Virus record (IMG/VR): IMGVR_UViG_3300027969_000082
Span: 1 to 64,000 of that record
Reading direction: 5' to 3' (one strand)
Length of the DNA stretch: 64,000 nucleotides
Source: a virus
A model generated the notes under the pieces. It made no database searches. It was not told the DNA's origin and saw nothing but the letters and a program-made list of their open reading frames with translations. Both the position numbers and the translations under genes were made by a program. Every line of letters starts with the position of its first letter. The first letter of the stretch is position 1. Positions 31,101 through 48,373 of the stretch are shown here, in pieces.

Positions 31101-34100
31101 GATATAAGTGATATATTAGCTGGCGGCCTTAGCAGCATTCCTGCTCTAATTATTCCAGATCCAGTTGGATACGATTCTGCATATGCTGATGCTAGAGACA
31201 TGCTTGTATCTAACAAAGCATTTTTACAACAAGAAGTTAGTGCATGGATTGCTTCTCGTATAGCAGGTAACTTTGCTCCTTTTGTTGGATTTGTCTACAG
31301 TGGTACAGGGCAAACAAAATGCGAACGCGATGTAGGTTACATTGTTGATGCACTACGTTATGACTTAACATATGGCGGCAATCTTGAGACATTAGTTGCA
31401 GCTCGTTCTTTCTATTCATTTGGTACATTTGTAGAAACTGGGGAAAAAGATCAAGCACTTGCAGTATATGAATACTTAAAGTCTATTATTGGTTATATTG
31501 CCGAAGGCGATAATGGTTCGTGGATTAAAACACCAAGTAATCCGCTAAATCAAGACGATTCGTTAAACCCTGGTTCTGCAGCAGCAGGCATTTTCTTAGA
31601 AGAAAGACTACAAGAAATTATTGATACAATTGATACAGGTACAGTACCTGACGCAATTGAACCAAGTACATCGTGGGTAGACAGTGACAATGTTGCAGCA
31701 AAGGCAGCAATGCAAACTCTTAAAGCCGGCATACAAGCTGGAGCAATTGAGTATATTAGTACTTCATACCCGTCTCTTGTATATGATACTGATGTTTGCT
31801 ATAGAGACGTAGGGTACATTGTTGATGCTATCTCTTATGACATTATGTTCGGTGGTAACTTCCGCTCTATTAAAGCAGGTATGTCGTACTATAGAGGTAC
31901 ATCATCGACCCAAACCGTAATTACAAGCCAGCTTGCACAAACAGAAGCAACAATTACATATATAAACACTGCTTTACAACAAATTACAGCAGGTTATACA
32001 GGGTCAGTTGGAAGCACAACAGCAGTTTCTAGAGTTGAGACTAGCGCAAATGTTATGTGGGATATTGTAGCAAGTGGACTTGGAGCAGTACCAACACTAG
32101 TATTGCCAAATCCTACCGGGTACGGATCATCCTTAACACATACTGCATATGCAGTAACTGGTAACACTTCTGGCGCAACTACAACGTATGATTATGCTAG
32201 AACACAAATTGTTCAAAACTATGCGTTCATGAGGGCTGAAATTGCACAATATCTAAATGTGAACTATAATGCCGTATGGGTTGCGTTAGGAGCCACCGGC
32301 CAAGCTGGGTGTGCAAGGGATATCGGTTATATCTTAGATGGTATTCGTTACGATATTACTTACGGTGGAAACACACAAAGTTTAATTACAGGAAGTGCAT
32401 ATTATTCTAACTACTCACTAACTATTCAAACAGGCGAACTTACTGCAACTATCGCAGCATATACTAGACTAAAGACTATTATTGGACAAATTGCTACAAA
32501 GACTAGCGTAACAGTTACCCCTGGAAACGTAACACCACAGATAACAGCTGGTAGTGCAGGTAATGCATATAGCGCACTGTTTGCACAAAATAGAGTGCAA
32601 GATATTATTGATTGGATTTCTAATGGCACTGCAAATTCAACAGTAAAGCCTGCGTTAACATGGGCTAGCTCAGATTTACAATCTGCATATGCAGCATTAC
32701 AAGATAGAAAAACAGAAATTCAATCTGATGTTGTATGGTGGGTTTACAAAAATCATCAAGATTTAAACTTTAACGAAGACACATGCTCTAGAGACTCAGG
32801 CTACTTAATTGACGCACTAAGCTATGACGTTATTACTGGTAGTAATTTTGCTGCAATTACGTCAGGGCGAGCATACCTTAGAGGAACTACCTCAGCTCAA
32901 CTAGTTGCAACAAGTCAACGAAAAGCAGAGCTTGGATCTATTAATTTCTTAAAGTATAAAGCTAAACACATTGCCGCAGTTGGTGCTGTTGCACAAATAG
33001 ATGCATTGATTACAGACATTACCGGTTACATTAATGGCGGATCAATCCCTAGAATACAGTGGACTAATCCATCTACTATTGCTAGTGGATATGCAGCAGC
33101 AAATGTATTGTTAATAGATAATACAGAATTTATCAAAGCAGAAATTGCAGCATGGATCACAGTTCAAATTGGTCTAAGTACGTCTGGATTTGTAGGGCTA
33201 GTATTTGACAGCGAAGCTTGCCAACGCGATGTTGGCTACATTGTTGAAGCATTACGTTACGACTTAACTTATGGTTACGGCATCGGCGGCACTGGAAATC
33301 TTGCAACACGTATTGCAGGACTTGCCTACTATTCAGCATTAACGAGTGTACTACAAATTGACTCGGGCGATAAGACTGCTACACTTGCTGCATACGCAAG
33401 ATTAAAAGCTGTAGCCCAAGATGTTATCAAAGATGTTGCAGTTACTCCGTCTGCAGGCAATACAGTAACACAAGTTAGAGCAGTTACCGGACAAACAGCA
33501 GGTACTTCTACAGAAGCTACTAGCTTAGGTACTCTAGTAGATGTTATTACAACTACAATTAATAATTTAGGTAGTGCTCCAGCATTGGTAGCTCCTGGCA
33601 CAGGCTGGGTCACTACTGCATATGTTACTGAAAATAATTCGTTGCAAACAAATAAAGCAACTATTAAAGCCCAAGTAACAACGTTTATTACAGAAAATTA
33701 TCCAAATTTAAATTACAATTCTGCAACTTGTGAAAGAGATGTAGGGTACATTATTGACTATGTTGGATACGACATGTTATTTGACAGTAATTATCTAACA
33801 ATTACTTCTGCTAGAAGTTACTACCGAGCACAAGCTTCATTAGTAATTGGTGAACAACGAGATGCTACTATTGCATCATTTAGATATTTAAAAACTCTAA
33901 TGCTAGCAATTGTAGAAGGTAATGCAACGGTTAGACGCAGAGTCAAAATATTAATGGATATCATTATTAACACAATGATAAATGGTATTGGTTCAACTCC
34001 GGAAGTAACCGGAACAATAACTTACAAAAATGATGTTGGCCTATATAAAGGTGCTGAAGTTCTAAGGGCAAATAAAAACTTCTTAGCAGCAGAAGCAACA

Positions 34101-37100
34101 GCGTGGATTACTCAAAGTTATGGCGGTACAGTGACATCAGTTACTGCATCTACTGATAGATTCACTACTAGCTCTGCACACAATTTAACAGCAGGCGATC
34201 CGGTTATATTTTCTGGAACACTTATTTCAGGCAGCGGCATTGTAGCTAGTACCGTATATTATGTACTAGCTACCCCAACTACTACAACATTTACTATTAC
34301 AGATTCAGCAATTGAAACAACTGCACATAATGTAACAGCAGATGCGTCTGGCAGCATGACTGTACGTTATGCGTTCGATGATACTTCTTGCAAGCGCGAT
34401 ATGAAAGAATATATTGAAGCTATGATTTATGATTTAAGCTACACTGGTAACTACAAATCATTGAGAGCAGCTGAATTATATATTAATGCAGTACGTGGGT
34501 CTAAGCAACAAAATATGTTCTATGTTAGTAACGCTACCGGTTTACGTAATTGTACGTTAAACGGATTAAACGGAACACTAAGTGAAGAAAATGATTACGG
34601 AACTAAACGCCCAACTGCTGGCGCATATGTTAGTTTAAATCCAGGATTTGGGCCAAACGATTCAAGCGTATGGGTTAATACACGCTCGCACTACTCGCAA
34701 AACGTATCATTATTTGGAACAGGTTGTACAGGAGCCAAGATTGACGGAGCATTGCATGCCGGCGGTAATCGCTCAATGGTTAAGAATGACTTTACTACTA
34801 TTATGAGTGATGGTTTTGGTGTTTGGTGTACTGGTGCTAACTCACTAACAGAACTTGTTTCAGTGTTTAACTACTACGGCTACGCAGGCTACATGGCAGA
34901 ATTAGGCGGACGTATTCGTGCAACAAACGGTAACAGCTCATATGGTACATATGGTGTTATTGCCGAAGGTACTGATACGTACGAACAACCAATTTATGCA
35001 GTTGTAGATAATCATGCTCAACAATCGGTAGTTACTGATACTATTACAGATTCAGCAAATACTATCTACAGAATTGAATTTTCAAATGCTGGTACAAATT
35101 ATACAAACGTAGACATTGGAATCAGCGGTGATGGTGTTAATGCTACTACTATCGGGGACGAGTTCCGTGATGGTGGAGTATTTGAAACTCGATTAATTGA
35201 CCTAGACGACGGCAACGGGTACGGCGGCACAAACTATGCAAATGCTATTAATGCAGCGCAGGGCGGCGATGTTGGTTATATTACTATTGCAGCTACTGAC
35301 ATCGCTCTAAGCACTGCGTATGTTGGAATGCGTATTCAAATTAGTGCAGGCACTGGAGTAGGACAATATGCAAATATTCTAACGTATAATAGCGGTACTA
35401 AAATTGCCACTATTTACAAAGATAGTTTTACAGCATTAACAGTATCAACAACTACAGATACCGGCGACTTTGTCAACGTTGCGTCAAATGCAACATTGTA
35501 TGCTGACATGCCAATCTACTTTGTTGGAACAACATTTGGTAGCATTACTGCTAACACATTGTACTATGTCAAAGCATTAACCGGAACTACTCAATTTACT
35601 GTATATCAAAATACAACTACAAAAGCACAGATTAATGTAACAGGTGGCAGCGGAACAATGTCTATCTATGCTGCTGGATGGGATCACGCAGTTCCTGGAA
35701 CTACGTTAGTTAACAGTTTGGATTTATCTTCAAGCTATAAACTTGAACCAAGAATTAGCTATACTGCTCCTGGATATACAGCAACAGCAAGATCTATTCA
35801 AGCAGTTGCTTTCTCAGCAGCAACATTTGGTAATAACAGATATATTGCAATTCCTACAAGCGGAACAAGTACATCTTACAGTTTAGATGGAAAAACTTGG
35901 ACTGCTGGCGGAGTACTAAGTGCAAGCGCAAGCTGGGTTGACACAACATATGGCGGCGGACAAGGTGCAGTTGCAACTGCACTAGTAGGCGGCCTTGGCG
36001 GCTCCGGTGCAGTATTACAGGCAGTTATGGGAGTTGTTAACAGTATTGGCGCTCCTGGAATTGACCAAATTGTTAGTGTTACTATTATTGATGGCGGTTA
36101 CAACTATACAACACCTCCAACAATTGTGTTTACACCAGTTACAGGCGGCGCTGGCGCTGTAGCGTCCTGTACTGTACTAAACGGAAAAATTGACAGTATA
36201 ACTGTTGAGATTAACGGCTCTGGATACAATGCCAAACCAACAGTGTCAGCTGCAACAGACAGAGTAACAAAACTTACTGTGTCAACTTGGGGGAGAGGAT
36301 ATACTTCAGCTCCAACAGTTACAGTTAGCCCTCCAGTGAGCGCAACAGTGTGGAGCTCTTTAGGTAGCGCAACACAAGGAACTTATTACTCATATGTAAA
36401 CACTGGTGTTATTCCGAGCGAAACTAATTACTATCTAGCAGGAGCAACCGGAACATTTAGTTCAACTGCTCCAACTTTTACTAGTGGAACTGGCAGCTCA
36501 GGTACATACGGAGTAGGCTTAACATATGTTGGATCTTTAGCAACAGGTACTGCTGTATTGAATAACACTGGTGTAGGATCTATTACTATAGGCGCAACAG
36601 GCGGGCGTGGCTATACTAGCAATCCAACTGTGTCTATAGTTGATACTACTGCAAAATATGTTGCTATTGCAAGTGGTGCAATAGGAACTTCCTACTTGCC
36701 AACAAGTGCTGCGGCTAACGCAGCATGGTCTACAGGAGGAAATCTTCAAGCTGGATTTACCGATGCTGCCGCAATAACATATGGTGGAGGCTTATTTGTT
36801 GCAGTTGGAGGTACTAACAAAGGCGCATCTGCACCGTTAAGTGCAGTAGGCACTACCTGGACTGCTAGAACATTGCCAACAACTAGCGGAACTTATTCTG
36901 CAATTACTTATGGCAACGGAACATTTGTTGCAATAACAACAGGGGCTCAACTAACTGCCTATAGTACAAACGCTACAACGTGGACACAAGGCGGAAACCT
37001 ACCAACTTCTACCACATGGAGTAGTATTGCATATGGTAACGGACGATTTGTTGCTATTGCTACTGGCACACGGAGTGTTGCTATTAGTTTAGACAAAGGT

Positions 37101-38645
37101 GTAAATTGGAAAACAGTGACTCCAGGCATGCCTAGCGCACTAACATGGACTAAGATTGTTTACGGTCAAGGACTATTTGTTGCAATTGCTAGCGGAACCA
37201 CTTCAGTGGCAACTAGTCCTGACGGTATAAATTGGACTGTTAGAACCATGCCAGGATCTAGTTCCACATGGAAAGGCCTGGCATTTGGTAATGTAAGCAG
37301 CAACCCATTATGGGTAGCAGTATCTAGTACAAGCGGACAAAACGCAGCTTCATTAAGAACTGGTGCTACTGCATTAGGTAGAATGAAGGCAGAGTCCGGA
37401 ACTATAACTGAAATTAGAATGATTGAGCCAGGTTCCGGATATCCAAAAGGAACTGTTACAGCAACTACTGATACTACTAATGTAATCACGGTAAACAACA
37501 CTGAAAACTTAATTGATAGTCAACCAATTATATTCTCTGGAGTATCTGATGGCGGCTTAGCCACTGAGAAATTGTATTATGTTATTGGAAGCACTATTGT
37601 TACAAACACTAGCTTTAAGGTTAGCTTAGTGGCAGGTAGTGCAACACCTGCAGTATTAGTAACTGTTACAGGATTAACTGGAACTTACAGAGCAGGCCCT
37701 ATTGCTACTCAAACAGATCCAAACAAAGTTATCACTGCTGCAATTAACCCAAGAACAAACGACGGTGTACTAGCTAACCCGTCATTTAGTAATAGAGGAA
37801 CATTATATACAACTGCTACTACTGCGGTTACAGGTGACGGCCATGCTGACTTATACCAACCTAGTACATTTATTGCTGTTAGAAACTTGTATGATAGACC
37901 ACAAGCTGGTGCTAACATAGTGTTTTCATCGTTATCAGATGTATGGTATAAATTAGTTGCTGTTACTAATCTATTAGGCGACAAGGGAGACTACACGGCT
38001 CAATTCCAGATTAGTCCAGGTATTTCGGTACTCGAAGCCCCAATTGATGCAGCTACAGTTACTACTACAATTAAGTATAGCCAAGTTCGTCTAACTGGAC
38101 ACGACTTCTTGTACATTGGTACAGGAAATCAAGCACAGACTAACTATCCGTTTGTAGACCCGTCATATGCAGACATTGACAAACAGACTAATAGTAGCGG
38201 TGGCGGACGAGTATTCTTTACAAGTACTGACCAAGACGGTAACTTTAACGTTGGAGGTTTATTTGGAGTTCAACAGTCAACTGGTACTGCTACATTGAAC
38301 GCTGATGCGTTTAACCTAAGCGGTCTACAAAGTTTGCAGTTAGGTGAGATTAACCTAGGTGTTGGATCAGCTGTTATTAACCAGTTTAGTACAGACCCGT
38401 ACTTTACTGCTGATAGCGATAATATTGTACCAACACAGCGAGCAATTAAAGCATATATTACAGCCCAAATTGGTGGCGGACAGAGCTCATTGAACGTAAA
38501 TACACTAACAGCTGGTGTTGTATACGTGGCAAACGACTCGATCTCAACTACTAGTGGTGGTCAGTTAAATATAAAATCAAAGATGTATTTTACAGGTGGA
38601 ATTGACGGGGCTCCCGTTGCACTTGGATTCTTCTTACAACGATAA
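28158..38645 (+). CDS. Giant tail-fibre/adhesin protein (3495 aa), largest gene of the window
   Basis: It shares the architecture of the 2707-aa protein: seven N-terminal CBM5/12-like repeats (residues about 1-560, the third split by an insert), a pectate-lyase-like segment and VKTGTYDEVLPMVIP beta-helix strands, a shared central beta-helix (GNSSYGTYGVIAEG), propeller blades (YGNG.FVAI, about 2557-3057) and a C-terminus with DQDGNFNVGGLFGV and IVPTQRAIKAYI. It differs by eight copies of a helical motif (ERDVGYIVDALRYDLTYGGN) near residues 754, 1055, 1214, 1384, 1543, 1688, 1857 and 2077, whereas the other protein has one. Four scattered 'PI.F.G......YYV' units and Gly-rich GSGY strands inside the propeller are further differences. 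Size and repeats suit a very long fibre; no active site is obvious. Confidence 0.85.
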   Translation: MAEFKLGRIRFVWKGTWTPSTSYLIDDVVSNGGKSYICVVNHTAASLFNTDLDFVPSKWNIVSDGTQWLGDWEPETYYNPGASVKYGGLVYICKTGHTSATYEVPDFLGLEDDLGNWELFAESFDWKGPWNTATRYRINDFVSYGSTVYVCTTGHLSDASTVTLPASAFTVSAGTATLTYAPQNVAPYAVGSTVTLAGFTPTQTSGVVNTVNASFTVITCTATQLTFALTGTYASSVLGTVTGTSQLGLETDSSNWDIFNQGVIYLGDWSGSAVRYKANDVVKFGANLWICTDYHTSSASFDQTKWDIFVEGFEFENSWNNSTNYQPGDVVTYGGYSYIAKTINVNKQPTTNAADWGVFTTGFNFVGEYNSLTNYKVGDVVRNGGYTYVAVLDSVGQLVSSGTYWSLLNSGFRWTNTPQTYTEVASVTTIGTGAGAKFNVIRSGTVYTVSVAGGFAGSGYFANDQVKILGTVVGGISPANDITINILTVSAGGVATINWSGGSSTWTTATAYVLGDTVYFGANSYVCVANHTASTPSRPDNDTTGAYWNLLAAGSEYNILTTTGDMVYYGTNGPTRLPVGFDGQVLRSQNGFPIWANYGLINNLVYVGPLGKDIAYPDAGATIDQPWKTVRFATKQIEEGYLTPNAKTILAKNKQFIMKEITNWVIYTYTVDITAADDASDRFTCNDTSNLILNMPIEFTSTLGGVTAGQKYFVKSIVGSEFSISEASGGATKQLTAGTGSMTGTLSYDHDFCERDVGLIVEAVKYDVSHGGNMKTTAAAKAYFTAAGNTYINSNFGAQKTQTVAAYTYLAELFDNVLNNAPFRNYQVFNGITNGVTQIVDTSLTVESGVVDRVYELISIITDAITIGSATAIPPSINPATTISVKTGTYDEVLPMVIPEYTAIVGDELRSTIIQPAPANGLLVNDKEKTTTALNRINSIASNLIQNITVSPTSGNTEVQQYVTGFKGDPTLTTAVDDRATDISDILAGGLSSIPALIIPDPVGYDSAYADARDMLVSNKAFLQQEVSAWIASRIAGNFAPFVGFVYSGTGQTKCERDVGYIVDALRYDLTYGGNLETLVAARSFYSFGTFVETGEKDQALAVYEYLKSIIGYIAEGDNGSWIKTPSNPLNQDDSLNPGSAAAGIFLEERLQEIIDTIDTGTVPDAIEPSTSWVDSDNVAAKAAMQTLKAGIQAGAIEYISTSYPSLVYDTDVCYRDVGYIVDAISYDIMFGGNFRSIKAGMSYYRGTSSTQTVITSQLAQTEATITYINTALQQITAGYTGSVGSTTAVSRVETSANVMWDIVASGLGAVPTLVLPNPTGYGSSLTHTAYAVTGNTSGATTTYDYARTQIVQNYAFMRAEIAQYLNVNYNAVWVALGATGQAGCARDIGYILDGIRYDITYGGNTQSLITGSAYYSNYSLTIQTGELTATIAAYTRLKTIIGQIATKTSVTVTPGNVTPQITAGSAGNAYSALFAQNRVQDIIDWISNGTANSTVKPALTWASSDLQSAYAALQDRKTEIQSDVVWWVYKNHQDLNFNEDTCSRDSGYLIDALSYDVITGSNFAAITSGRAYLRGTTSAQLVATSQRKAELGSINFLKYKAKHIAAVGAVAQIDALITDITGYINGGSIPRIQWTNPSTIASGYAAANVLLIDNTEFIKAEIAAWITVQIGLSTSGFVGLVFDSEACQRDVGYIVEALRYDLTYGYGIGGTGNLATRIAGLAYYSALTSVLQIDSGDKTATLAAYARLKAVAQDVIKDVAVTPSAGNTVTQVRAVTGQTAGTSTEATSLGTLVDVITTTINNLGSAPALVAPGTGWVTTAYVTENNSLQTNKATIKAQVTTFITENYPNLNYNSATCERDVGYIIDYVGYDMLFDSNYLTITSARSYYRAQASLVIGEQRDATIASFRYLKTLMLAIVEGNATVRRRVKILMDIIINTMINGIGSTPEVTGTITYKNDVGLYKGAEVLRANKNFLAAEATAWITQSYGGTVTSVTASTDRFTTSSAHNLTAGDPVIFSGTLISGSGIVASTVYYVLATPTTTTFTITDSAIETTAHNVTADASGSMTVRYAFDDTSCKRDMKEYIEAMIYDLSYTGNYKSLRAAELYINAVRGSKQQNMFYVSNATGLRNCTLNGLNGTLSEENDYGTKRPTAGAYVSLNPGFGPNDSSVWVNTRSHYSQNVSLFGTGCTGAKIDGALHAGGNRSMVKNDFTTIMSDGFGVWCTGANSLTELVSVFNYYGYAGYMAELGGRIRATNGNSSYGTYGVIAEGTDTYEQPIYAVVDNHAQQSVVTDTITDSANTIYRIEFSNAGTNYTNVDIGISGDGVNATTIGDEFRDGGVFETRLIDLDDGNGYGGTNYANAINAAQGGDVGYITIAATDIALSTAYVGMRIQISAGTGVGQYANILTYNSGTKIATIYKDSFTALTVSTTTDTGDFVNVASNATLYADMPIYFVGTTFGSITANTLYYVKALTGTTQFTVYQNTTTKAQINVTGGSGTMSIYAAGWDHAVPGTTLVNSLDLSSSYKLEPRISYTAPGYTATARSIQAVAFSAATFGNNRYIAIPTSGTSTSYSLDGKTWTAGGVLSASASWVDTTYGGGQGAVATALVGGLGGSGAVLQAVMGVVNSIGAPGIDQIVSVTIIDGGYNYTTPPTIVFTPVTGGAGAVASCTVLNGKIDSITVEINGSGYNAKPTVSAATDRVTKLTVSTWGRGYTSAPTVTVSPPVSATVWSSLGSATQGTYYSYVNTGVIPSETNYYLAGATGTFSSTAPTFTSGTGSSGTYGVGLTYVGSLATGTAVLNNTGVGSITIGATGGRGYTSNPTVSIVDTTAKYVAIASGAIGTSYLPTSAAANAAWSTGGNLQAGFTDAAAITYGGGLFVAVGGTNKGASAPLSAVGTTWTARTLPTTSGTYSAITYGNGTFVAITTGAQLTAYSTNATTWTQGGNLPTSTTWSSIAYGNGRFVAIATGTRSVAISLDKGVNWKTVTPGMPSALTWTKIVYGQGLFVAIASGTTSVATSPDGINWTVRTMPGSSSTWKGLAFGNVSSNPLWVAVSSTSGQNAASLRTGATALGRMKAESGTITEIRMIEPGSGYPKGTVTATTDTTNVITVNNTENLIDSQPIIFSGVSDGGLATEKLYYVIGSTIVTNTSFKVSLVAGSATPAVLVTVTGLTGTYRAGPIATQTDPNKVITAAINPRTNDGVLANPSFSNRGTLYTTATTAVTGDGHADLYQPSTFIAVRNLYDRPQAGANIVFSSLSDVWYKLVAVTNLLGDKGDYTAQFQISPGISVLEAPIDAATVTTTIKYSQVRLTGHDFLYIGTGNQAQTNYPFVDPSYADIDKQTNSSGGGRVFFTSTDQDGNFNVGGLFGVQQSTGTATLNADAFNLSGLQSLQLGEINLGVGSAVINQFSTDPYFTADSDNIVPTQRAIKAYITAQIGGGQSSLNVNTLTAGVVYVANDSISTTSGGQLNIKSKMYFTGGIDGAPVALGFFLQR

Positions 38646-38662
38646 TTTACGGAGATATAAAA

Positions 38663-38989
38663 ATGGCAACAGGAAGATTAGGCGCGGGAGCAGTAGCAAT
38701 CCCAGCAATTACAAATACTACAGTATACACAGTGCCTGTAGGATATTATGCAGTATGTAATGTATCTATCACTAATAGAAATACAACAGCAGTTACTATA
38801 AGATTGGCACTTTCAACGTCAGGTTCGCCTGGTTCTGAAGAATGGATTGAATATGATACTGTTGTTATTCCTAACGGAACATACGAACGCACGGGTTTAG
38901 TCGGGCAAGCCGGACTAAATATTGTTGTTTACTCCTCAGCTGCTTTAGTTGGCTGTACAGTATACGGTATTGAAACATCTACATCATAA
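38663..38989 (+). CDS. Small beta-sandwich virion protein (paralogue family)
   Basis: The 108-aa product (AIPAITNTTVYTVPVGYYAVCNVSI...) shares the AIPAIT.T..YT opening with the 110-aa protein at 4655, and its later strands (EWIEYDTVVIPNGTYERTGLV, IVVYSSAA) match the second half of the double protein at 39991 (YIEYDSILAAGAVLERTGIV, IGVYSSVA). It follows the 3495-aa fibre gene by 17 bases with a GGAGAT ribosome site. It is a likely structural companion of fibres. No enzymatic motif is present. Confidence 0.65.
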   Translation: MATGRLGAGAVAIPAITNTTVYTVPVGYYAVCNVSITNRNTTAVTIRLALSTSGSPGSEEWIEYDTVVIPNGTYERTGLVGQAGLNIVVYSSAALVGCTVYGIETSTS

Positions 38990-39990: not shown

Positions 39991-40638
39991 ATGGCAATAG
40001 GAATTAATTCAAGAGTAGATTTATCCGCAGCAACCAACACAACGATTGCAACTACTCCTGCATCTGGAAAAGCACAAATATTAACTGTATCACTAGCTAA
40101 TCGAACAGGAACTGCTGGAACGTTTAACCTAGCTATTGTTAATAACGGTACAACTACGCCAGCAGCCGGAGACTATATAGAAATATCTACTCCTATCGCA
40201 GCGTATACTGTATTTGAAAAAACAGGCATTGTACTACAAAACGGACAAACTATTGTAGCTTATTCTAGCATTGCCAGTGTATCTGCTGTTACATACGGTA
40301 TAGAAGATAACGTGGCTAACTCAAACACTGGTTCTTTTAAAGCTGCTCTTCCAGCAGCGACTTGGGTACAGGCAACTGCTGGCCCTGCCGCTGGCCGTTA
40401 TCAAACAGTTAGTTTGAATATTTGTAATCGTAACAGTGCATTGACATTGATTAGAGTCTGTATTTCTACAACATACAATTCACCAAGTGCAAGCGACTAC
40501 ATCGAGTATGACTCGATATTAGCAGCAGGCGCAGTATTAGAAAGAACTGGTATTGTCATCGGTAACGGTCAACAAATTGGCGTATATTCAAGCGTAGCAA
40601 CTGTTGACCTAGTTACTATGATTGTTGACGACGCATAA
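39991..40638 (+). CDS. Two-domain beta-sandwich virion protein (internal duplication)
   Basis: The 215-aa product is a tandem duplication of the roughly 108-aa domain seen at 4655, 19248 and 38663. The first half contains ILTVSLANRTG, DYIEISTPIAAYTVFEKTGIVLQNGQTIVAYSSIASV and the second half VSLNICNRNS, DYIEYDSILAAGAVLERTGIVIGNGQQIGVYSSVATV, which align strand by strand. It has AAGGAAA before the ATG. The duplication suggests that the domain oligomerises and that two copies can be covalently linked. It lies just before the fibre-tip cassettes. Confidence 0.7.
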   Translation: MAIGINSRVDLSAATNTTIATTPASGKAQILTVSLANRTGTAGTFNLAIVNNGTTTPAAGDYIEISTPIAAYTVFEKTGIVLQNGQTIVAYSSIASVSAVTYGIEDNVANSNTGSFKAALPAATWVQATAGPAAGRYQTVSLNICNRNSALTLIRVCISTTYNSPSASDYIEYDSILAAGAVLERTGIVIGNGQQIGVYSSVATVDLVTMIVDDA

Positions 40639-40670: not shown

Positions 40671-41414
40671 ATGTCAGGCGTTAAACTAATTTATGATAAT
40701 ACATGCACTAGCACCAGTAATACTAGCTGCTCATGGACTGTGCCAGCCGGTGTATTTCGTGTAACATTCGAATTATGGGGTGGCGGCGGCGGCGGTGGTG
40801 TTCCGGGAACTAACTGCAATTGCTGTAGTACTGGAGGCGCAGGCAGCGGTGGCGGCTACTCTAAACTAACTGTTAACACTACCCCTGGAGATGTTTATAC
40901 AGCAGTAGCAGGATCAGCTGGCGTCAGCGGCGGATTTGGAGCTCCACTATCACTGTGTGCTAACGGCATTACTGGCGGAACTAGTTATGTTACCGGAACT
41001 AACGTTGGCGCTACTTTCTGTGCTACAGGCGGTCTTGGCGGCCTAAGTGATTTTGCCACTAATTGCTATTCAATTTGTGGATGTAACTGGTATAGTAGAA
41101 CACCGGGACAAGGTTATGGTGGCGACACAGTAGCTCAAGGTACATGGGGAATTCATTCATTATGGGGCGGCCAAGAACCTTGGGGCGCCCAACACTTTGG
41201 CGGAAGCGCAGGCGGCCCAGGCGGCGGCCCAGGCGGATTTAATATGTCAGCCGGGTATTGTAGCGGACTTGCTTGCTCAGTAACAGGTGAAGGCCCACTT
41301 CATGGTCGTATACCTGGCGGCGGTGGGGCAGGTGGATCATGCTGGCAGCTCTGCTGCTGCTGCCCATGGGCTAGCGGGCGTGGCGCACCTGGCATGGTTA
41401 AAATTACTTATTAA
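40671..41414 (+). CDS. Glycine- and cysteine-rich fibre-tip protein, copy 1
   Basis: The 247-aa product opens with a beta strand block ending SWTVPAGVFRVTFELWGGGGGGG and closes with GRGAPGMVKITY. These are the typical first and last strands of glycine-rich phage fibre-tip domains, which fold as packed polyglycine-II helices and bind receptors. Between them are glycine blocks (GGAGSGGGYS, FCATGGLGG, GGPGGGPGG, PGGGGAGG). Unusually it has 17 cysteines in 247 residues, including NCNCC and LCCCC. No signal peptide is visible. It is one of three paralogues, each followed by a small chaperone-like gene. The receptor-binding role is inferred from the fold pattern and position after the fibre genes. 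Confidence 0.75.
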   Translation: MSGVKLIYDNTCTSTSNTSCSWTVPAGVFRVTFELWGGGGGGGVPGTNCNCCSTGGAGSGGGYSKLTVNTTPGDVYTAVAGSAGVSGGFGAPLSLCANGITGGTSYVTGTNVGATFCATGGLGGLSDFATNCYSICGCNWYSRTPGQGYGGDTVAQGTWGIHSLWGGQEPWGAQHFGGSAGGPGGGPGGFNMSAGYCSGLACSVTGEGPLHGRIPGGGGAGGSCWQLCCCCPWASGRGAPGMVKITY

Positions 41415-41425
41415 TTGAGGATATC

Positions 41426-41926
41426 ATGAATACACATAAAATATTAATAAGTAACGATACAGGAAAAATTATTTTACCTATCCATACTATAGACGACCCA
41501 AGACCATGTCCTCCAGATGCTACATGGATAGAAGTAGATCCAGATACTAGTATATACAAACATTATGTAAATCTTGAAGATGTTCACCATCTAGACATCG
41601 AAGCAACATATTGGGATTTTGAAACAGGCTTGTGGGTAGAAGTACCTACAAGTGCGCTACCAACATTTGAAAAAACAAGATTTAACAGAAACGAGTTACT
41701 AAAACACAGTGATAAAGTTTTTGCAACAGTAACAGATCCTGTAGAAAGACAGCAATGGATTACTTACAGGCAGCAATTAAGAACTATGTTTGACGGTCTT
41801 CCTGCGGATTTTGACTGGAATGAAATTATCTTTCCAAGAATGCCATCAGATATCAAAGCATTAAAAGACAAAGCTGCCGCAGGCGACGCTGTTGCAATCG
41901 AAATAGTTACAAGGGATAATTTATAA
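41426..41926 (+). CDS. Tail-fibre assembly chaperone-like protein, copy 1
   Basis: The 166-aa product ends with a segment that fits the phage tail assembly chaperone pattern: RNELLKHSD ... DPVERQQWITYRQQLRTM ... FDWNEIIFPRMP (about residues 91-138), the familiar 'RN.LL..SD...W..YRQ.LR......P..P' signature. Such proteins help fold or attach fibre tips and in some phages remain bound. Its position directly after the tip gene supports a cognate pair. Its stop overlaps the next tip gene by one base (TAATG), so translation of the next tip is probably coupled. The N-terminal half is not recognisable. Confidence 0.65.
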   Translation: MNTHKILISNDTGKIILPIHTIDDPRPCPPDATWIEVDPDTSIYKHYVNLEDVHHLDIEATYWDFETGLWVEVPTSALPTFEKTRFNRNELLKHSDKVFATVTDPVERQQWITYRQQLRTMFDGLPADFDWNEIIFPRMPSDIKALKDKAAAGDAVAIEIVTRDNL

Positions 41927-42624
41927 TGGGACGATTTATTAGTGCAACAGTCGGGTATACTCCTTCTCAACGAAGAACTCTTCAAGTATTTGCTAATGCT
42001 TCAAGTTTTTGTTGTTTATGGACTGTCCCATCAGGTGTTACGTCAGTAACATTTGAAATATGGGGTGGCGGTGGCGCTGGCGGCCCGAAATGCTGCTGTT
42101 ATTGCGCGGCTTCAGCCGGCGGAAGCGCAGGAGGATACGCAATTAAGACTGTAACAACTTCTGCAGGACAACAATATACTATATGCGCAGGTGGCCCAGG
42201 AGAAGCCCGTTACTGTTCAGTTGGCGGATCAAACATCGGTTGTCAAGGCTGTACAAGTTTTGTAACAGGAACAGGATTAAGCAACTTCTGTGCAACTGGA
42301 GGTGCTGGCGGGTATTCAGTTTGTTGTATTCAAATGACACAATGTTGTGGAGGCAACGGCTACGGCGGTGATTTTAATATCCCCGGTGGAGATGGCTGGC
42401 AAAAAGGCGGATGCAGTACTTGGATATGCCATTACAGTGCAGGCGGCGCAGCAGCATTTGGAGGACACTCATGGCATGCTATGCACCACTGCTGTCCTTA
42501 TGCTAGTTGCGGTTGGTGCGGATTATTCCCCGGTGGTGGCGGCACAGGATTATTTTCTTGTTGTTGCGAATGCTGTTTCTGCCAAGGCGGAGGCGCACCA
42601 GGTTTAGTAAAGGTGACTTATTAA
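41926..42624 (+). CDS. Glycine- and cysteine-rich fibre-tip protein, copy 2
   Basis: The 232-aa product aligns with copies 1 and 3: LWTVPSGVTSVTFEIWGGGGAGG near residues 31-53, NFCATGGAGG in the middle, FPGGGGTG and GGGAPGLVKVTY at the end. It has 27 cysteines (over 11 percent), with runs KCCCYC, CCIQMTQCC, HHCCPYASCGWC and SCCCECCFC. Glycine is equally abundant. The pattern suggests a polyglycine-II bundle decorated with cysteines that may form disulphides outside the cell or bind metal. It begins on the last base of the preceding stop codon (TAATG). A receptor-binding tip is the likely role. Confidence 0.75.
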   Translation: MGRFISATVGYTPSQRRTLQVFANASSFCCLWTVPSGVTSVTFEIWGGGGAGGPKCCCYCAASAGGSAGGYAIKTVTTSAGQQYTICAGGPGEARYCSVGGSNIGCQGCTSFVTGTGLSNFCATGGAGGYSVCCIQMTQCCGGNGYGGDFNIPGGDGWQKGGCSTWICHYSAGGAAAFGGHSWHAMHHCCPYASCGWCGLFPGGGGTGLFSCCCECCFCQGGGAPGLVKVTY

Positions 42625-42625
42625 T

Positions 42626-43072
42626 ATGTACTATTCAATTGTAGAAAAAGCAACAGGCATAATGCATGAAGGTTGGTCAAACTATATTCATGTTGATGAA
42701 TCAGATAGACCATTACATCAATCTCTAGCATATGTGCCATTAAATGATTTATTAACAAAATTGTTAACAACAGACGGTAGTGATTTAGGCGATGAACTAC
42801 ACCCAGTAGATTATAGACGAACACATTATGACTTTAACACAGAGCAATGGGTAATCATTTATCAAGACGATGTTCCTGTACCTGCGGATCCTGTAACTGT
42901 TGCACAAGACTTAAAAAATCAACACATAGCAGCAGTTAATATTAAATTGACTATACCAGATTTAAGCACTTCTGCTAGAACCAAATTAGAAGCTCATTTG
43001 GCAGCACTTACTGCGATTGAAGTAACTGCTGAAACAGCTAAAGATATTCAATGGCCGGTATCACCGTTTTAA
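42626..43072 (+). CDS. Tail-fibre assembly chaperone-like protein, copy 2 (divergent)
   Basis: The 148-aa product is at the same place relative to its tip gene as the other two chaperone-like genes. Its C-terminus keeps only a weak version of the signature (LEAHLAALTAIEVTAETAKDIQWPVSPF, with the final W-P-x-x-P), without the YRQ.LR core. The N-terminal part (YYSIVEKATGIMHEGW..., VDYRRTHYDFNTEQWVI) is shaped like copy 1 (ATYWDFETGLWVEV): both have a short 'T.Y.F.T..WV' strand. The function is inferred from position and this limited similarity. Confidence 0.5.
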   Translation: MYYSIVEKATGIMHEGWSNYIHVDESDRPLHQSLAYVPLNDLLTKLLTTDGSDLGDELHPVDYRRTHYDFNTEQWVIIYQDDVPVPADPVTVAQDLKNQHIAAVNIKLTIPDLSTSARTKLEAHLAALTAIEVTAETAKDIQWPVSPF

Positions 43073-43084
43073 AAGAGAAAAAAT

Positions 43085-43789
43085 ATGGCAAGATATTATA
43101 CTGTAGCAACATCAGCAACACTAACCTGTAGTGCTGTATGTGATTTTCAAAATCCGGGCGCTTATACATGGACAGTTCCATCGGGAGTAACTGAAGTTAC
43201 TTTTGAAATTTGGGGAGCCGGCGGTGGCGGTGGCGCCAAGTGCTGTTGCGAATGTTATCACGGCGGCCCCGGCGGTGCTGGTGGCGGATATTCATCAGTA
43301 AGCGTTACTACTGCTGTAGGCTGTGCTTATGCGGTATGCGTTGGCTACGGAGGCATGGTCCCAACTGTTGGAAGCTGCGCACTTCACTGGTGCTGTTATG
43401 GGCAACCCGGATCAACCACATATATTACTGGATTTAATTTAAGTAATTTCTGTGCAACCGGCGGCGATGGCGGCCATAACACATGCTATTATATTTGCGG
43501 ATGCCGCAATGACCCGGGCACCGGCTATGGCGGCAACGTAGTTGCATGTGGTGCTGGCGGGGCAATCCAGGGGTATAGCGATGCATATTTCTGGAGAATG
43601 AATCACAGTGGTAGCGCACCATTTACCGGCGGCTCAAGACCGCACTCAGGAGACCATTGCTGCCCTTGTATGTTAGGTTATCCTGGCGTATTTCCAGGTG
43701 GTGGTGGCGCAACCGTTATGCCTAATATCTGTTGCTGCTGCTCACAAGCCGGCGCTGGCGCAAACGGCCTTGTTAGAATTCACTATTAA
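43085..43789 (+). CDS. Glycine- and cysteine-rich fibre-tip protein, copy 3
   Basis: The 234-aa product has the same layout as copies 1 and 2: TWTVPSGVTEVTFEIWGAGGGGG, NFCATGGDGG with ICGC, GTGYGG, FPGGGG and the closing strand NGLVRIHY. It contains 23 cysteines, with KCCCEC near residues 52-57, HCCPC, and ICCCC near the C-terminus; the positions of most clusters match copy 2. It has AAAAGAGA before its ATG. Sequence between conserved glycine blocks varies strongly among the three copies, as expected of receptor-binding loops. Confidence 0.75.
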   Translation: MARYYTVATSATLTCSAVCDFQNPGAYTWTVPSGVTEVTFEIWGAGGGGGAKCCCECYHGGPGGAGGGYSSVSVTTAVGCAYAVCVGYGGMVPTVGSCALHWCCYGQPGSTTYITGFNLSNFCATGGDGGHNTCYYICGCRNDPGTGYGGNVVACGAGGAIQGYSDAYFWRMNHSGSAPFTGGSRPHSGDHCCPCMLGYPGVFPGGGGATVMPNICCCCSQAGAGANGLVRIHY

Positions 43790-43802
43790 AAGGTAAACTA
43801 TA

Positions 43803-44291
43803 ATGACACAATACGCTTTATTTTTTAACACACAAACAAATAAACCTCACTCTGCGGTAATTTATAGAGATGAACAAATTCCACCGCAAGAAGTTTGGCC
43901 ACCTAATACTGATCTGTTTGTCTTCGATGAAACTACTCCAAATTTTAATAAGTTATATGGAATATTTGTCGATGACAAAGAAAAAGTATATCTAGATTAT
44001 GATGCGTTTAATACAGTACGAGACCCTGTTACTGGAGAATTTACGTTTCCTTTAATGGAAAAAATGTCTAATATTGAACAAATTAGATGGGAACGTAATA
44101 AAAAGATGGAAGAAAGCGATGCGTTTATTTACGCTCCGGATCTTCCAGAAAGTATCATGCAAGAGTTGCTGGCATATAGGCAAGCATTGAGAGATATTAC
44201 CAATGGTATTGATCCAGAAACTCCGACTTATGAACTTAACTGGCCAGTTCTTCCTGAACCATTTAGGCCCGCACCACGGATGGATATTTAA
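43803..44291 (+). CDS. Tail-fibre assembly chaperone-like protein, copy 3
   Basis: The 162-aa product carries the chaperone-like signature near its C-terminus: IRWERNKKMEESDAFIYAPDLPESIMQELLAYRQALRDI...NWPVLP split as RNKKMEESD, LAYRQALRDI and LNWPVLP, close to the pattern of phage tail assembly chaperones. It follows the third tip gene by 13 bases with AAAAGGTAAA as ribosome site and ends the tip cluster. Its stop overlaps the end of the opposite-strand gene by four bases, so transcription converges here. Confidence 0.65.
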   Translation: MTQYALFFNTQTNKPHSAVIYRDEQIPPQEVWPPNTDLFVFDETTPNFNKLYGIFVDDKEKVYLDYDAFNTVRDPVTGEFTFPLMEKMSNIEQIRWERNKKMEESDAFIYAPDLPESIMQELLAYRQALRDITNGIDPETPTYELNWPVLPEPFRPAPRMDI

Positions 44292-44842
44292 GTTTTATCA
44301 ACAATTGCGTGAGCAAACTCAAAAAAGGTAGTATAACGGGTCCAATTGGACCCGTTACCTATTTTAACAGGCATGGCTTTGACAGACGATGCAGCTAATA
44401 AATCTTTATCAAACGAACTAACAACAGGAATACTACTCCAATTGATTGATTGATTTTCAGTCGCCTTATGAAACATGCCTGGGTTAGGAACAACATATGG
44501 GTCGTCTTTGGTAATAGATGGGCACCAATAAATTCCAACTACTTTAACGCCTTGTGAATTTACAAATCTCTCAACAGCACCGTTTAGATTATTAAATGTT
44601 TCATAAGGTAATTGTCTTGATTTAAATTGATTAATGAACAGAATTGCTGAATAATTTTGTTCAGCTAGTAATTTTAATCCGGCCATTGCAGACTCTAAAA
44701 AATCAATCTTTCCAGAGTGAACATCTGTTGTATTAGGATCTACTAGTGCATTAAATGGAAACAATCCAATTATTTTAGATGGCGTAACAGTGGTATTGAT
44801 ACTTGTAGTTGGTGAGGTTAATATATGTCTAAAACGACTCAT
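44288..44842 (-). CDS. HAD-like (GmhB-type) protein with degraded active site
   Basis: The 184-aa product resembles in layout the small HAD phosphatases of the heptose-bisphosphate/histidinol-phosphate type: SAMAGLKLLAEQNYSAILFINQ (helix then motif II strand), VKVVGIYWCPS..KDDPYVVPNPGMFHKA (where GmhB has the CPH...C.CRKP.PGM loop) and VVSSFDKDLLAASSVKAMPVKIGNG (where motif IV reads GD...D...A..AG). The motif I aspartates (DxD) are missing, and so are the zinc cysteines and the CRKP arginine and lysine. Catalysis is therefore doubtful. It is the only minus-strand gene at the border between tip genes and the sugar island. Assignment is by pattern only and could be wrong. Confidence 0.45.
   Translation of the reverse strand: MSRFRHILTSPTTSINTTVTPSKIIGLFPFNALVDPNTTDVHSGKIDFLESAMAGLKLLAEQNYSAILFINQFKSRQLPYETFNNLNGAVERFVNSQGVKVVGIYWCPSITKDDPYVVPNPGMFHKATENQSINWSSIPVVSSFDKDLLAASSVKAMPVKIGNGSNWTRYTTFFEFAHAIVDKT
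44334..44357. repeat. 24-bp perfect palindrome
   Basis: TAACGGGTCC, AATT, GGACCCGTTA form a perfect inverted repeat (10-bp arms, 4-base centre) inside the 3' end of the minus-strand HAD-like gene, 43 bases downstream of the plus-strand stop at 44291. In RNA it is a strong hairpin on either strand. There is no clean T-run, though the plus strand continues CCTATTTTAAC. It may stop read-through from the tip cluster. Confidence 0.55.
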
Positions 44843-44947: not shown

Positions 44948-45877
44948 ATGCAAAAAACAGTTTTTATTAATGGTGGAGCAGGCAGAATGATATGTGCGCT
45001 GCCAGCACTTGAAAGATTTATCCAAGAAAATCCAGATGGCTATATTATAACAGAAGCAGGATTAGATTTTGTGTGGGGCAATCGTATATTGCAAGATCGA
45101 TCAATTGAAATTAATACTAAGGGACTTTTTGAAAATATTATACGAAAAAGTATAATTATTGCACCAGAACCGTATAGAGATTTTGATTATTATAATCAAA
45201 ATCTAAGTATAGCACAAACATTTGATAAACTTATTAATGGAAATGTTAGAGAAGGGTTCGATTATCGTCCAAACATCATTCTTAATAAAGAAGAAGAATT
45301 AAATGGCGTATCAGTAATAAAACATGCTAAGGACGAACATAAAAAAGAAAAAACTATTGTCATTCAACCGTTTGGTCGTAGTTCAACAAATGACGATAAT
45401 GTGGGAGTTGTTGTGGACTTTAGCACCCGAAGTTTGGAAATGAAAACGTATATGGCTATTGCAAAAGCACTTAGAGAACAGTATAATGTTATCAGCATGA
45501 CAGAATTTGCAATACCTGGGGACGACATTAGTATCAACCCTAAGCAACTAACTTTGCGTAAATGGGCGTCAATTATTGACCATGCAGATTATTTCATTGG
45601 TTGTGATAGTGTAGGACAACATCTTGCATATAGTATGCAAAAACCTGGTAGTGTAATACTAGGAAGTACATTTGCTGTTAATGTAAGCTATCCTAATTAT
45701 TTTAACATTATTGAAAAACAAGGCGTAGAAAAACGATACAGCCCAATTAGGATTTCAGAATTTGGGTGCTATGAAGCAGACAGAATAAACGACATGTTGT
45801 TAGAATTTAACGACGAAGAAACAGAGCAAGTCATAAAAAATATTATGACACACATTAAAAAAACAATTGGAGAATAA
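44948..45877 (+). CDS. Glycosyltransferase family 9-like protein (heptosyltransferase fold)
   Basis: The 309-aa product shows the two halves of a GT-B fold. The N-terminal half has the nucleotide-fold start FINGGAGRMICALPALERFIQENPDG, equivalent to the 'LGD....PAL..L....P' motif of ADP-heptose:LPS heptosyltransferases. The C-terminal half begins KTIVIQPFGRSS and contains YFIGCDSVGQHLAYSMQKPGSVILGST near residues 217-243, matching the 'GNDSG..HLA.ALGKP...LFG.T' donor-site motif. It would transfer a sugar, donor unknown. It is two bases from the carbamoyltransferase gene, suggesting an operon. The family is fairly clear; donor and acceptor cannot be read from sequence. Confidence 0.65.
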   Translation: MQKTVFINGGAGRMICALPALERFIQENPDGYIITEAGLDFVWGNRILQDRSIEINTKGLFENIIRKSIIIAPEPYRDFDYYNQNLSIAQTFDKLINGNVREGFDYRPNIILNKEEELNGVSVIKHAKDEHKKEKTIVIQPFGRSSTNDDNVGVVVDFSTRSLEMKTYMAIAKALREQYNVISMTEFAIPGDDISINPKQLTLRKWASIIDHADYFIGCDSVGQHLAYSMQKPGSVILGSTFAVNVSYPNYFNIIEKQGVEKRYSPIRISEFGCYEADRINDMLLEFNDEETEQVIKNIMTHIKKTIGE

Positions 45878-45879
45878 GA

Positions 45880-47661
45880 ATGACACAATGGATTGCAGGT
45901 ATTACTCGAGGTCACAACGCAGCAACCTGTTTGCTTAAAGACGGCGAACTAATCTTCTATATTGAAGAGGAGCGACTAAGCCGTAGAAAATACGATGGTG
46001 GTCCATTAGCAGGTATGTTAAAAATTAAAGAATACACTGATAAAATTGACTATCTTGTAGTTGCCCATACGCAACCTCTTAAAGATGCCGGCAAGATTGA
46101 TTTTAGCGGTGATGACATGTATTCTGGTTTAGCCAGGAAACTAGGTCTTATTGAACAAAATTTTAAAGGTCCAGATCATCCACAAGTAATTGACCTTGGA
46201 ATGATACACCACGAGTTACATGCGGCCTGCGCATTTTATAATAGTGGATTTGAAACCGCCGCCTGTTTAATTGTTGACGGTGCTGGTACTTTTGTACCAC
46301 TAGGAGAAACTATTGGTTGGGAATTAGAAACAATTTTTAGTGCAAATTATCCAGCAAACTTTGCCACTAAGTATAAACATATAGGTCTGCGTGGCCCACA
46401 GGTAAGTTACGAAAAATTAAATTGCCCGCATGAAAACAGAGGTAAACCAGAAGATATACATGATGTAATGTTCACTGATCATCCTGGAATTACCAAATGT
46501 TACGAAGCAATGACTAACTATTGTGGTTTCAATTTTATTGAAGCTGGCAAAGCTATGGGTCTTGCACCATACGGTAAACCTAATGCAATGATTCCTCCTA
46601 TCTTTCTTGGTCCTGAAGGTAGACATTTAAGTAATAGGAACTTATTTGTTCCTAACTATCCAAATGGAGCACTTATTGATAAAACTAGTAATCCAATATT
46701 AGATAATGATAGTTTAGAAATGAAGCAGGATCTTGCATATGCTGTACAAGAAGCTACGCAAATGCAAATGGTTCGTTTAATTCTTGATGCAATTGAAAGA
46801 ACAGGTGAAAAGAATATTGTAATAGCAGGGGGCTACGGTCTAAATTGTGTTGCTAATTACGAGTATTTAAAACACTTGCCTGAAGGTGTAAACTTGTACG
46901 TTGAACCAATCAGCCATGATGGCGGTACCTGTATTGGTGCTGCAAAAATGATACATCATGATTTAAACACAGATAATACTGTTAGAAAACAAACTAGCAT
47001 TTATTACGGTCCTAACTATTTTGAAAAAAATGGCGGCTACGATATCAAACTAGCTGAATACGAAACTATTGAAGATGTTACTAAAGAAGATATTGTAGAC
47101 TTATTGTTACAAGAAAAAATTGTATGTATGTACCAAGGCCGTAGTGAAGCTGGTCCACGTGCATTAGGTAATCGAAGTATTTTGTTTAATCCTGCCGTTA
47201 AAAATGGTAAAGATATTGTAAATGGTGTTAAGCATCGTGAATGGTTCCGCCCGTTTGCAGGGACTATTTTAAAAGAAGCGGTACACGAGTGGTTTGATCT
47301 ACGAGGTATGGATGCAACTCCTCACATGATGTATGCTGTAGATTGTCAGCCAGGTGTTGTTGATAAGATCCCCAGCATCATTCACGTTGATGGTACATGC
47401 CGTATTCAGTCAGTGACTAGTGAAGAAAATTCACACTATTATGATTTAATTAGTAAATTTAATGATAAAACAGGAATACCTATCCTATTCAATACTAGCT
47501 TTAACTTGGGCGGTGAGCCACTAGTCGAAACAATTGAAGATGCATTACGTACATTAAGATTAAGTGATTTGGAATATTTGTATTTGCCAGAGATTGGTAA
47601 ACTAGTACATGTGCCTTATAATTTAAGTGAGGAGGAAGAAGATGGATGTGGTATGGTTTGA
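45880..47661 (+). CDS. NodU/CmcH/TobZ-family carbamoyltransferase
   Basis: The 593-aa length is normal for O-carbamoyltransferases, which move a carbamoyl group from carbamoyl phosphate through carbamoyl-AMP to a sugar or other hydroxyl. The N-terminal Kae1-like half has GITRGHNAATCLLKDG, EEERLSR and the metal-binding HHELHAA (about residues 110-116), then NFIEAGKAMGLAPYG. The C-terminal YrdC-like half has QGRSEAGPRALGNRS (about 420-435), HREWFRPFAGTIL and NTSFN..GEPLV (about 538-550). All expected motifs are intact, so it is probably active. It is embedded in a block with a glycosyltransferase, an oxygenase-like and an esterase-like gene, which suggests decoration of a glycan. Family members occur in marine T4-like phages. 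Confidence 0.9.
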   Translation: MTQWIAGITRGHNAATCLLKDGELIFYIEEERLSRRKYDGGPLAGMLKIKEYTDKIDYLVVAHTQPLKDAGKIDFSGDDMYSGLARKLGLIEQNFKGPDHPQVIDLGMIHHELHAACAFYNSGFETAACLIVDGAGTFVPLGETIGWELETIFSANYPANFATKYKHIGLRGPQVSYEKLNCPHENRGKPEDIHDVMFTDHPGITKCYEAMTNYCGFNFIEAGKAMGLAPYGKPNAMIPPIFLGPEGRHLSNRNLFVPNYPNGALIDKTSNPILDNDSLEMKQDLAYAVQEATQMQMVRLILDAIERTGEKNIVIAGGYGLNCVANYEYLKHLPEGVNLYVEPISHDGGTCIGAAKMIHHDLNTDNTVRKQTSIYYGPNYFEKNGGYDIKLAEYETIEDVTKEDIVDLLLQEKIVCMYQGRSEAGPRALGNRSILFNPAVKNGKDIVNGVKHREWFRPFAGTILKEAVHEWFDLRGMDATPHMMYAVDCQPGVVDKIPSIIHVDGTCRIQSVTSEENSHYYDLISKFNDKTGIPILFNTSFNLGGEPLVETIEDALRTLRLSDLEYLYLPEIGKLVHVPYNLSEEEEDGCGMV

Positions 47662-48373
47662 GGGAGCAAAGCCCCTAACAAAATTTGCACCAGCATTTAA
47701 AGTTCCTATTGGGATTGGATTTGCCGGTTCATCTAGTTTGATTGATAGATTAAAAACATATATTTTTAAAATTGAAAAAGATATCATTGTCAACGAAGAA
47801 CTAGTATCAACAGTTCCAAAGTCTAAAGAAGATCCTTATCGGCATACGCAACAATGGAAACAACATAATCTTCTTGATGACGTTGCTGGTTTAGGGGGCG
47901 AGCACTTAGAAAGGTTTCCGTCGGATCCAGTAATAGAAGAATTGTTTACACTAGTAAGGACTAATTATTTAGAATTTCTTGCTAAACTAAACTATCCTAG
48001 AAAAAAAGTCTATATTCACGGGTGGGCCAACGTATTAAGAGATACAGAATGGATTAGCAAACATCGGCATATAACTACTGAAGAATCATATCTTGCCTGT
48101 ACATATTACCTAACCACAAACAATACTGCTTTGTTTTTTGAAAATCCATTAATTGGTGATACTACTGGTACTCCAACTGAAGAAAAGAAAATAGTATTTT
48201 TTCCTAGCTGGATTCCACACTGGAGTGATGCTGTAACTGACAATAGTATTAGAATTTCTCTAGCATTTGATATAGTAACTGAGAGTTGTACTATACGTAA
48301 TCCGTGGAGACCTCATAGACTTTTAGACGACCCGGACACTATGCCAGGATTAGAAGGTTTAAGAATCAAGTAA
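47642..48373 (+). CDS. 2OG-Fe(II) oxygenase-like protein
   Basis: I take the ATG at 47642 because a perfect GAGGAGGAAGAAG ribosome site is directly before it; a GTG 15 bases upstream lies ahead of that site. The 243-aa product overlaps the carbamoyltransferase by 20 bases. Residues about 140-165 (KHRHITTEESYLACTYYL, then ALFFENP) and 185-210 (VFFPSWIPHWSD, RISLAFDIV) match the pattern of small putative 2OG-Fe(II) oxygenases of phages and bacteria ('H.H....LSG.YYL', 'FPSWL.H.V', 'RISISFN'). The iron ligands would be H142 or H144 and the histidine of WIPHW; a third ligand is not clear. It may hydroxylate a small molecule or protein. Confidence 0.6.
   Translation: MDVVWFEGAKPLTKFAPAFKVPIGIGFAGSSSLIDRLKTYIFKIEKDIIVNEELVSTVPKSKEDPYRHTQQWKQHNLLDDVAGLGGEHLERFPSDPVIEELFTLVRTNYLEFLAKLNYPRKKVYIHGWANVLRDTEWISKHRHITTEESYLACTYYLTTNNTALFFENPLIGDTTGTPTEEKKIVFFPSWIPHWSDAVTDNSIRISLAFDIVTESCTIRNPWRPHRLLDDPDTMPGLEGLRIK

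Follow-up and report, generated by a model that had tools for sequence, protein, structure and literature searches.

Cysteine-rich tip proteins and their partner genes

The window analyzed here is a stretch of 64,000 nucleotides (positions 1 to 64,000 of IMG/VR virus record IMGVR_UViG_3300027969_000082, which is 73,131 bases long). On its plus strand, three genes for cysteine-rich tip proteins alternate with three small genes for chaperone-like partners, and genes for a glycosyltransferase (GT) and other enzymes lie downstream. Tip protein 1 (40671..41414; 247 amino acids), tip protein 2 (41926..42624; 232 amino acids), and tip protein 3 (43085..43789; 234 amino acids) contain 17, 27, and 23 cysteines, respectively. 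As an earlier first-pass annotation of the sequence had claimed, these open reading frames (ORFs) encode three paralogous cysteine-rich proteins with opening and closing strands in common. The cut-off of the Pfam family Gly_rich_2 (PF21722), 24.3 bits, was exceeded by all three (33.9, 28.5, and 47.6 bits, respectively), and all three matched phrog_4205 (1e-19 for tip 1 and 9e-32 for tip 2). In the rest of the window, the mean cysteine content was 0.42% (36 other genes tallied). At this rate, the cysteine counts of the tips had a probability of 1e-15 to 5e-30, and chance or a composition artefact was therefore rejected as their source. The cysteines were located mostly within loops between glycine-rich stretches, and they included highly conserved CCCxC and CHC motifs.

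The fold was predicted for tip 3 with an AlphaFold2 model built on 128 sequences, which reached a predicted local distance difference test (pLDDT) score of 81 and a predicted template modeling (pTM) score of 0.81. The model contained no helices of at least 4 residues, and its N-terminus was of low confidence. The best solved match was the fibre protein gp24 of cyanophage Pam3 (PDB 7YPX; Z 20.9), with 196 aligned residues, a root-mean-square deviation of 2.4, and 21% identity, followed by the tail tip of Bxb1 (Z 14.2) and, at Z 8–10, glycine-rich domains from ALK and LTK. Matches to predicted viral structures included Syn9 gp38 as well as numerous proteins with glycine-rich domains. The trimeric fibre of Pam3 ends distally in its glycine-rich domain (PMC9608196). 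Similar to Pam3 gp24, the tip 3 model showed a TNF-like sandwich with a glycine-rich distal domain. However, Pam3 gp24 is one homotrimeric protein with its own helical shaft, whereas the window encodes several small separate tips of just 232–247 amino acids without such a shaft; set beside Pam3 gp24, the window tips themselves are cysteine-rich and are accompanied by the GT. Pam3 gp24 was reported to resemble the T4-like gp38 adhesin of phage S16 (PMC9608196). Any relation of this polyglycine tip to the window tips would run through Pam3, and it was absent among the PDB matches listed for the tip 3 model. The glycine-rich phage tip domain claimed in the first-pass annotation was thus borne out by the Gly_rich_2 scores and the match to Pam3 gp24, and a glycine-rich fibre-tip fold, predicted for tip 3, is well supported for the tips. 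The three genes would encode distal, receptor-binding fibre-tip proteins of the kind found at the end of Pam3 gp24, and by comparison with Pam3 the cysteine loops may form the distal end of the tip.

Each tip gene is followed by a small gene, namely, partner 1 (41426..41926; 166 amino acids), partner 2 (42626..43072; 148 amino acids), and partner 3 (43803..44291; 162 amino acids), all on the plus strand. Partner 3 passed the cut-off of Phage_tail_APC (PF16778; 26.6 bits) with 40.4 bits, while partner 1, which also matched a tail fibre assembly phrog, was slightly below it at 24.6 bits. In the case of partner 2, PF16778 was not among the matches listed, and the matches to Caudo_TAP (0.055, sub-threshold) and phrog_188 (0.005) were both weak; its assignment relies on its position, which is the same as that of partners 1 and 3 and recurs in loci L001 and L004. 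Thus, the small gene after each tip was found as claimed, while the chaperone match described as clear in two cases holds loosely. Among homologous partners, 32 of 41 matched PF16778 at E 0.01 or better. The AlphaFold2 model of partner 3 (pLDDT 92) had no match above Z 8 in the PDB, the best being 2kz6 (Z 6.8, over the helical part), and Pam3 gp25 and Mu Tfa were not among the PDB matches listed. As this model had no convincing solved relative, the partner genes are called chaperone-like, on sequence and position. In Pam3, the neighboring gene product gp25 is a chaperone that forms a 3:3 complex with gp24 and was not detected in virions (PMC9608196). With this precedent and the partner profile matches, the pairing of tip and chaperone is well supported, and the chaperone-like protein encoded behind each tip would assist that tip's folding.

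Cysteine conservation and tip arrays

Searching IMG/VR loci together with fetched phage records yielded 228 distinct homologues of the tips. All 228 were cysteine-rich. Accordingly, cysteine-richness peculiar to the source phage was rejected, and the non-conservation of cysteine clusters, which the first-pass annotation had named as an outcome that would speak against it, was not what the homologues displayed. Of 128 family members, 75 matched Gly_rich_2 at E 0.01 or better. An alignment of 128 tips had 6 columns with cysteine in at least about 90% of rows and 25 with cysteine in at least 40%. Moreover, in 1460 orthologous pairs of 45–65% identity, cysteine was the best-kept residue (0.87), ahead of glycine (0.77) and tryptophan (0.71). 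The cysteine counts were less spread than the Poisson expectation, and histidine was enriched beside cysteine.

These features bear on two structural explanations. First, the tips may be disulfide-stapled, with thiols oxidizing after lysis in oxygenated water and hardening the distal loops, while the GT serves another purpose. The strong conservation of cysteine between orthologues, the narrow spread of its count, and the many positions common to the whole family are consistent with such stapling. However, even and odd cysteine counts were about equally common (102 and 96, respectively), and thus no sign of obligatory pairing was seen; the CCC and CCCC runs are also awkward for pairing. Disulfide stapling is considered unlikely. 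Second, clusters of cysteine and histidine may bind iron, zinc, or copper, for which the idea of iron-bearing tails (the "Ferrojan horse") is a precedent in spirit. The conservation of the CCCxC and CHC motifs and the histidine beside cysteine suit a metal-loaded tip, but no metal-site family was among the Pfam matches listed for the tips, and this explanation is considered improbable.

Arrays mostly contained three tips, in the layouts T-c-T-c-T-c (the window, L001, L002, L004, and L021), T-c-T-T-c, and T-T-T-c, where T is a tip gene and c is a partner gene. In a FastTree tree of 66 three-tip arrays, the first, second, and third tips mostly formed separate clades inside each lineage. These positional clades were not common to different lineages, and the deep joins are unsure owing to several long branches. 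The role suggested earlier for three different tips on one phage is in line with the three-member arrays of most lineages and with the positional clades. However, P-SSM2-like arrays hold two tips; the statement that every array has three was dropped, and the case for a hetero-trimer is weakened. Tips 1–3 probably act jointly, and a hetero-trimer mounted on a trimeric fibre is a reasonable inference for how they may do so.

A putative glycosyltransferase linked to cysteine-rich adhesins

The first-pass annotation had placed the unit of interest at 40671–44291. This region does hold the tip cassettes, but the unit extends past that end to about 47661, and the GT, which was overlooked, is the strongest clue to the locus. 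The GT-like gene (44948..45877, plus strand) encodes a heptosyltransferase-like protein that matched TIGR02201 (6e-8), Glycosyltransferase family 9 (GT9; PF01075, 0.005), and, by profile, WaaF (1psw; E 0.009). As the window GT scored 16.7 bits, under the PF01075 cut-off of 22 bits, and was also below the TIGR02201 cut-off, it is named GT9-like; its S-CAM1 homologue was at the PF01075 cut-off with 22.0 bits. The next gene (45880..47661, plus strand) encodes a NodU/Nol-type carbamoyltransferase, in which the Carbam_trans_N (PF02543) and Carbam_trans_C (PF16861) domains of NodU/TobZ scored 81.2 and 193.3 bits against cut-offs of 24 and 27, and which matched phrog_1601. Between the tips and the GT, on the minus strand, lies a gene for a HAD phosphatase resembling the heptose-bisphosphate phosphatase GmhB (44288..44842; NCBIfam PRK08942, E 1e-10, below the equivalog cut-off). 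A 2OG-Fe(II) oxygenase gene (47642..48373, plus strand; PF13759, 31.6 bits) is less regularly linked, and it was dropped as a fixed partner because a related gene was near few other arrays.

The linkage was evaluated from both sides in loci that are not independent, several being near-copies from different metagenomes. With the tips as bait, the GT was present in 79 of 90 loci, and the 11 loci without it were all at most 8.1 kb long. Where an array had more than 3.5 kb of downstream sequence, a GT relative was always found downstream of the tips (53 of 53), together with a NodU-type carbamoyltransferase in 38 of those arrays. With the GT as bait, a cysteine-rich gene was found in 73 of 90 loci, the tip family accounting for 48 of these. 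The cysteine-rich neighbors of other families included proteins of 894 residues with 94 cysteines (L131), 684 with 80 (L135), and 791 with 58 (L126), for which Pfam and PHROGs scans gave few matches. When the major capsid protein was used as the control bait, none of 679 genes in 80 loci was cysteine-rich. In addition, 50,697 phage records were searched for GT homologues, and among those above 35% identity, the ones opened (S-CAM1, S-CAM3, S-SSM7, Sf-FS3, P-SSM2, AG-345-P14, and AG-345-O18) were all beside cysteine-rich genes. Relatives of the tips are widespread among aquatic phages, and the phages with cysteine-rich tail adhesins included both T4-like and N4-like ones. The GT query also retrieved 10 contigs of metagenome-assembled genomes labeled archaeal or bacterial (L185–L194), most with the same cysteine-rich tip genes, which are probably phage contigs binned with cells. 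A single-protein query over genome contigs found no tips in cellular genomes.

Natural contrasts were provided by relatives without the GT. Syn9 gp38 has the same fold as the tips by structure search, and in its loci, too, the fibre gene is followed by glycine-rich tip genes, but its cysteine content is 0.8%, and with gp38 as bait neither a GT nor a cysteine-rich gene was found in 64 loci. The mean cysteine content of the glycine-rich genes was 1.1% in these loci and 9.5% in the GT loci. When the tips were aligned with seven gp38-type proteins, the well-kept cysteine columns were mostly opposite gaps, serine, histidine, glycine, or threonine. Similarly, a tail protein with 41 cysteines adjoins a distant GT relative in Vibrio phage SBP1. 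The homologous segments of four Vibrio phages absent from the GT match lists had 0, 0, 3, and 0 cysteines, compared with 10, 10, 19, and 6 in SBP1, and had mostly polar residues at the places of the SBP1 cysteines, while most of these cysteines were kept in K480, which has the GT. Judged from these two sets of sequences, cysteine-richness tracks the GT and not the fold. Disulfide stapling predicts neither that unrelated families are linked to a GT nor that cysteine stands in place of polar residues in Vibrio tail proteins, and metal binding likewise does not predict the GT linkage.

Several other genes were observed near the tips and the GT. In Syn9, two annotated tryptophan halogenases stand just after the glycine-rich tip genes (L275:17966-21071), in the place occupied by the GT in the cysteine-rich lineages, and they may modify the tips by another chemistry. 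A flavoprotein-like gene, halogenase-like by eye (GGGSSGWMAAATLAK), lies just upstream of the GT in two contigs (L114:1969-3609 and L116:1260-2855), as do oxygenase-like genes. In P-SSM2, an annotated glutaredoxin gene (nrdC; L103:16598-16846) was found a few kilobases past the tips, GT, and carbamoyltransferase. A Vibrio phage tail protein of 1756 amino acids (L100:7729-12999) has alanine-rich repeats with cysteine replacing alanine (ACACAYADG).

The best reading of these results is that the cysteines of the receptor-binding tips serve the co-encoded GT as acceptor sites or as partners in some other way. The GT9-like enzyme would attach a sugar, perhaps heptose, to the tip thiols, the carbamoyltransferase would then decorate the attached sugar, and the resulting sugar coat would let the tip bind the host or withstand degradation. 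Three features hint at heptose: the resemblance of the GT to GT9, the GmhB-like gene in the window, and an HldE-like kinase encoded close to the tips of S-CAM1. That the GT acts on the tip cysteines is given almost an even chance. The wider proposal, in which unrelated adhesin families with many surface cysteines form a phage module whose thiols are glycosylated by a GT9-like enzyme, yielding hyper-S-glycosylated and possibly hetero-trimeric tips, is held more tentatively, as a possibility somewhat short of even.

Two further explanations assign the sugar genes other targets. The GT, with the carbamoyltransferase, may glycosylate serine and threonine of the tips or fibre, the cysteines being separately structural. 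TibC is a studied heptosyltransferase that acts on serine of adhesins (PMC4358343), and the GT is heptosyltransferase-like by similarity, but cysteine-richness accompanied the GT across families in surveys that scored cysteine content, and modification of serine and threonine is thus regarded as quite unlikely. The TibC/AAH autotransporter heptosyltransferases are a functional analogy to the proposed thiol glycosylation in that a heptosyltransferase acts on an adhesin (PMC4358343); they differ in modifying serine, and no TibC-type protein heptosyltransferase family was among the profile matches listed for the GT. Alternatively, the sugar genes may alter the host surface, for example in superinfection exclusion, their presence beside the tips reflecting no more than a common host-range module. 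In large cyanophages, gene clusters without a known role have indeed been described as lipopolysaccharide genes (PMC3037559). However, the neighbor of the GT was a cysteine-rich protein whatever its family, and same-fold tips without the cysteines also lacked the GT in the 64 Syn9 gp38-type loci; such a role is therefore thought to have little chance of being correct.

Several points weigh against thiol glycosylation itself. To our knowledge, no GT9 enzyme modifies cysteine, and the GT matches GT9 families just at or below curated cut-offs. The conservation of cysteine above glycine and tryptophan also fits disulfides or metal sites, and a sugar on every cysteine would be a tight fit in runs of three or four adjacent cysteines. 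Gene neighborhood shows co-selection and not substrate. In addition, 17 of the 90 GT loci showed no cysteine-rich gene. Several of these loci were incomplete, and in those examined in detail (L112, L114, L116, and L120) several other genes adjoin the GT, with the tip possibly beyond the 6 kb read. Finally, TibC, the studied protein heptosyltransferase, modifies serine (PMC4358343).

Glycine-rich tips are known, and the window tips are a variant of them; the cysteine-rich version with its enzyme partner appears undescribed, as the open-access papers searched contained no account of it, although one may exist elsewhere. One enzyme partner, as yet unstudied, is common to cysteine-hyper-rich tail adhesins from several families, and a demonstration of thiol glycosylation would make this module a new kind of system. 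If the thiols carry sugar, receptor-binding surfaces would be built here in a new manner, thiol-directed glycosyltransferases would gain a new source, and a role would be found for part of the sugar genes of large cyanophages, which have been described as lacking a known function (PMC3037559).

Source phage and upstream fibre genes

As the major capsid protein of the window was nearest to those of Vibrio phage 2.275.O, Sinorhizobium phage Phosso, and Pseudomonas PA5oct-like phages (66–69% identity), the source phage, an aquatic one, is T4-like and outside Kyanoviridae when judged on this protein. Upstream of the tips, an ORF on the plus strand (28158..38645) encodes a protein of 3495 amino acids that is likely the long fibre, the order of a tail fibre gene followed by tip genes being common to the window, S-SSM7, and P-SSM2. 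Between this gene and the tips, two small genes (38663-38989 and 39991-40638) both match phrog_11338 (tail fibre). The second has two stretches matched to this phrog and looks like two fused copies.

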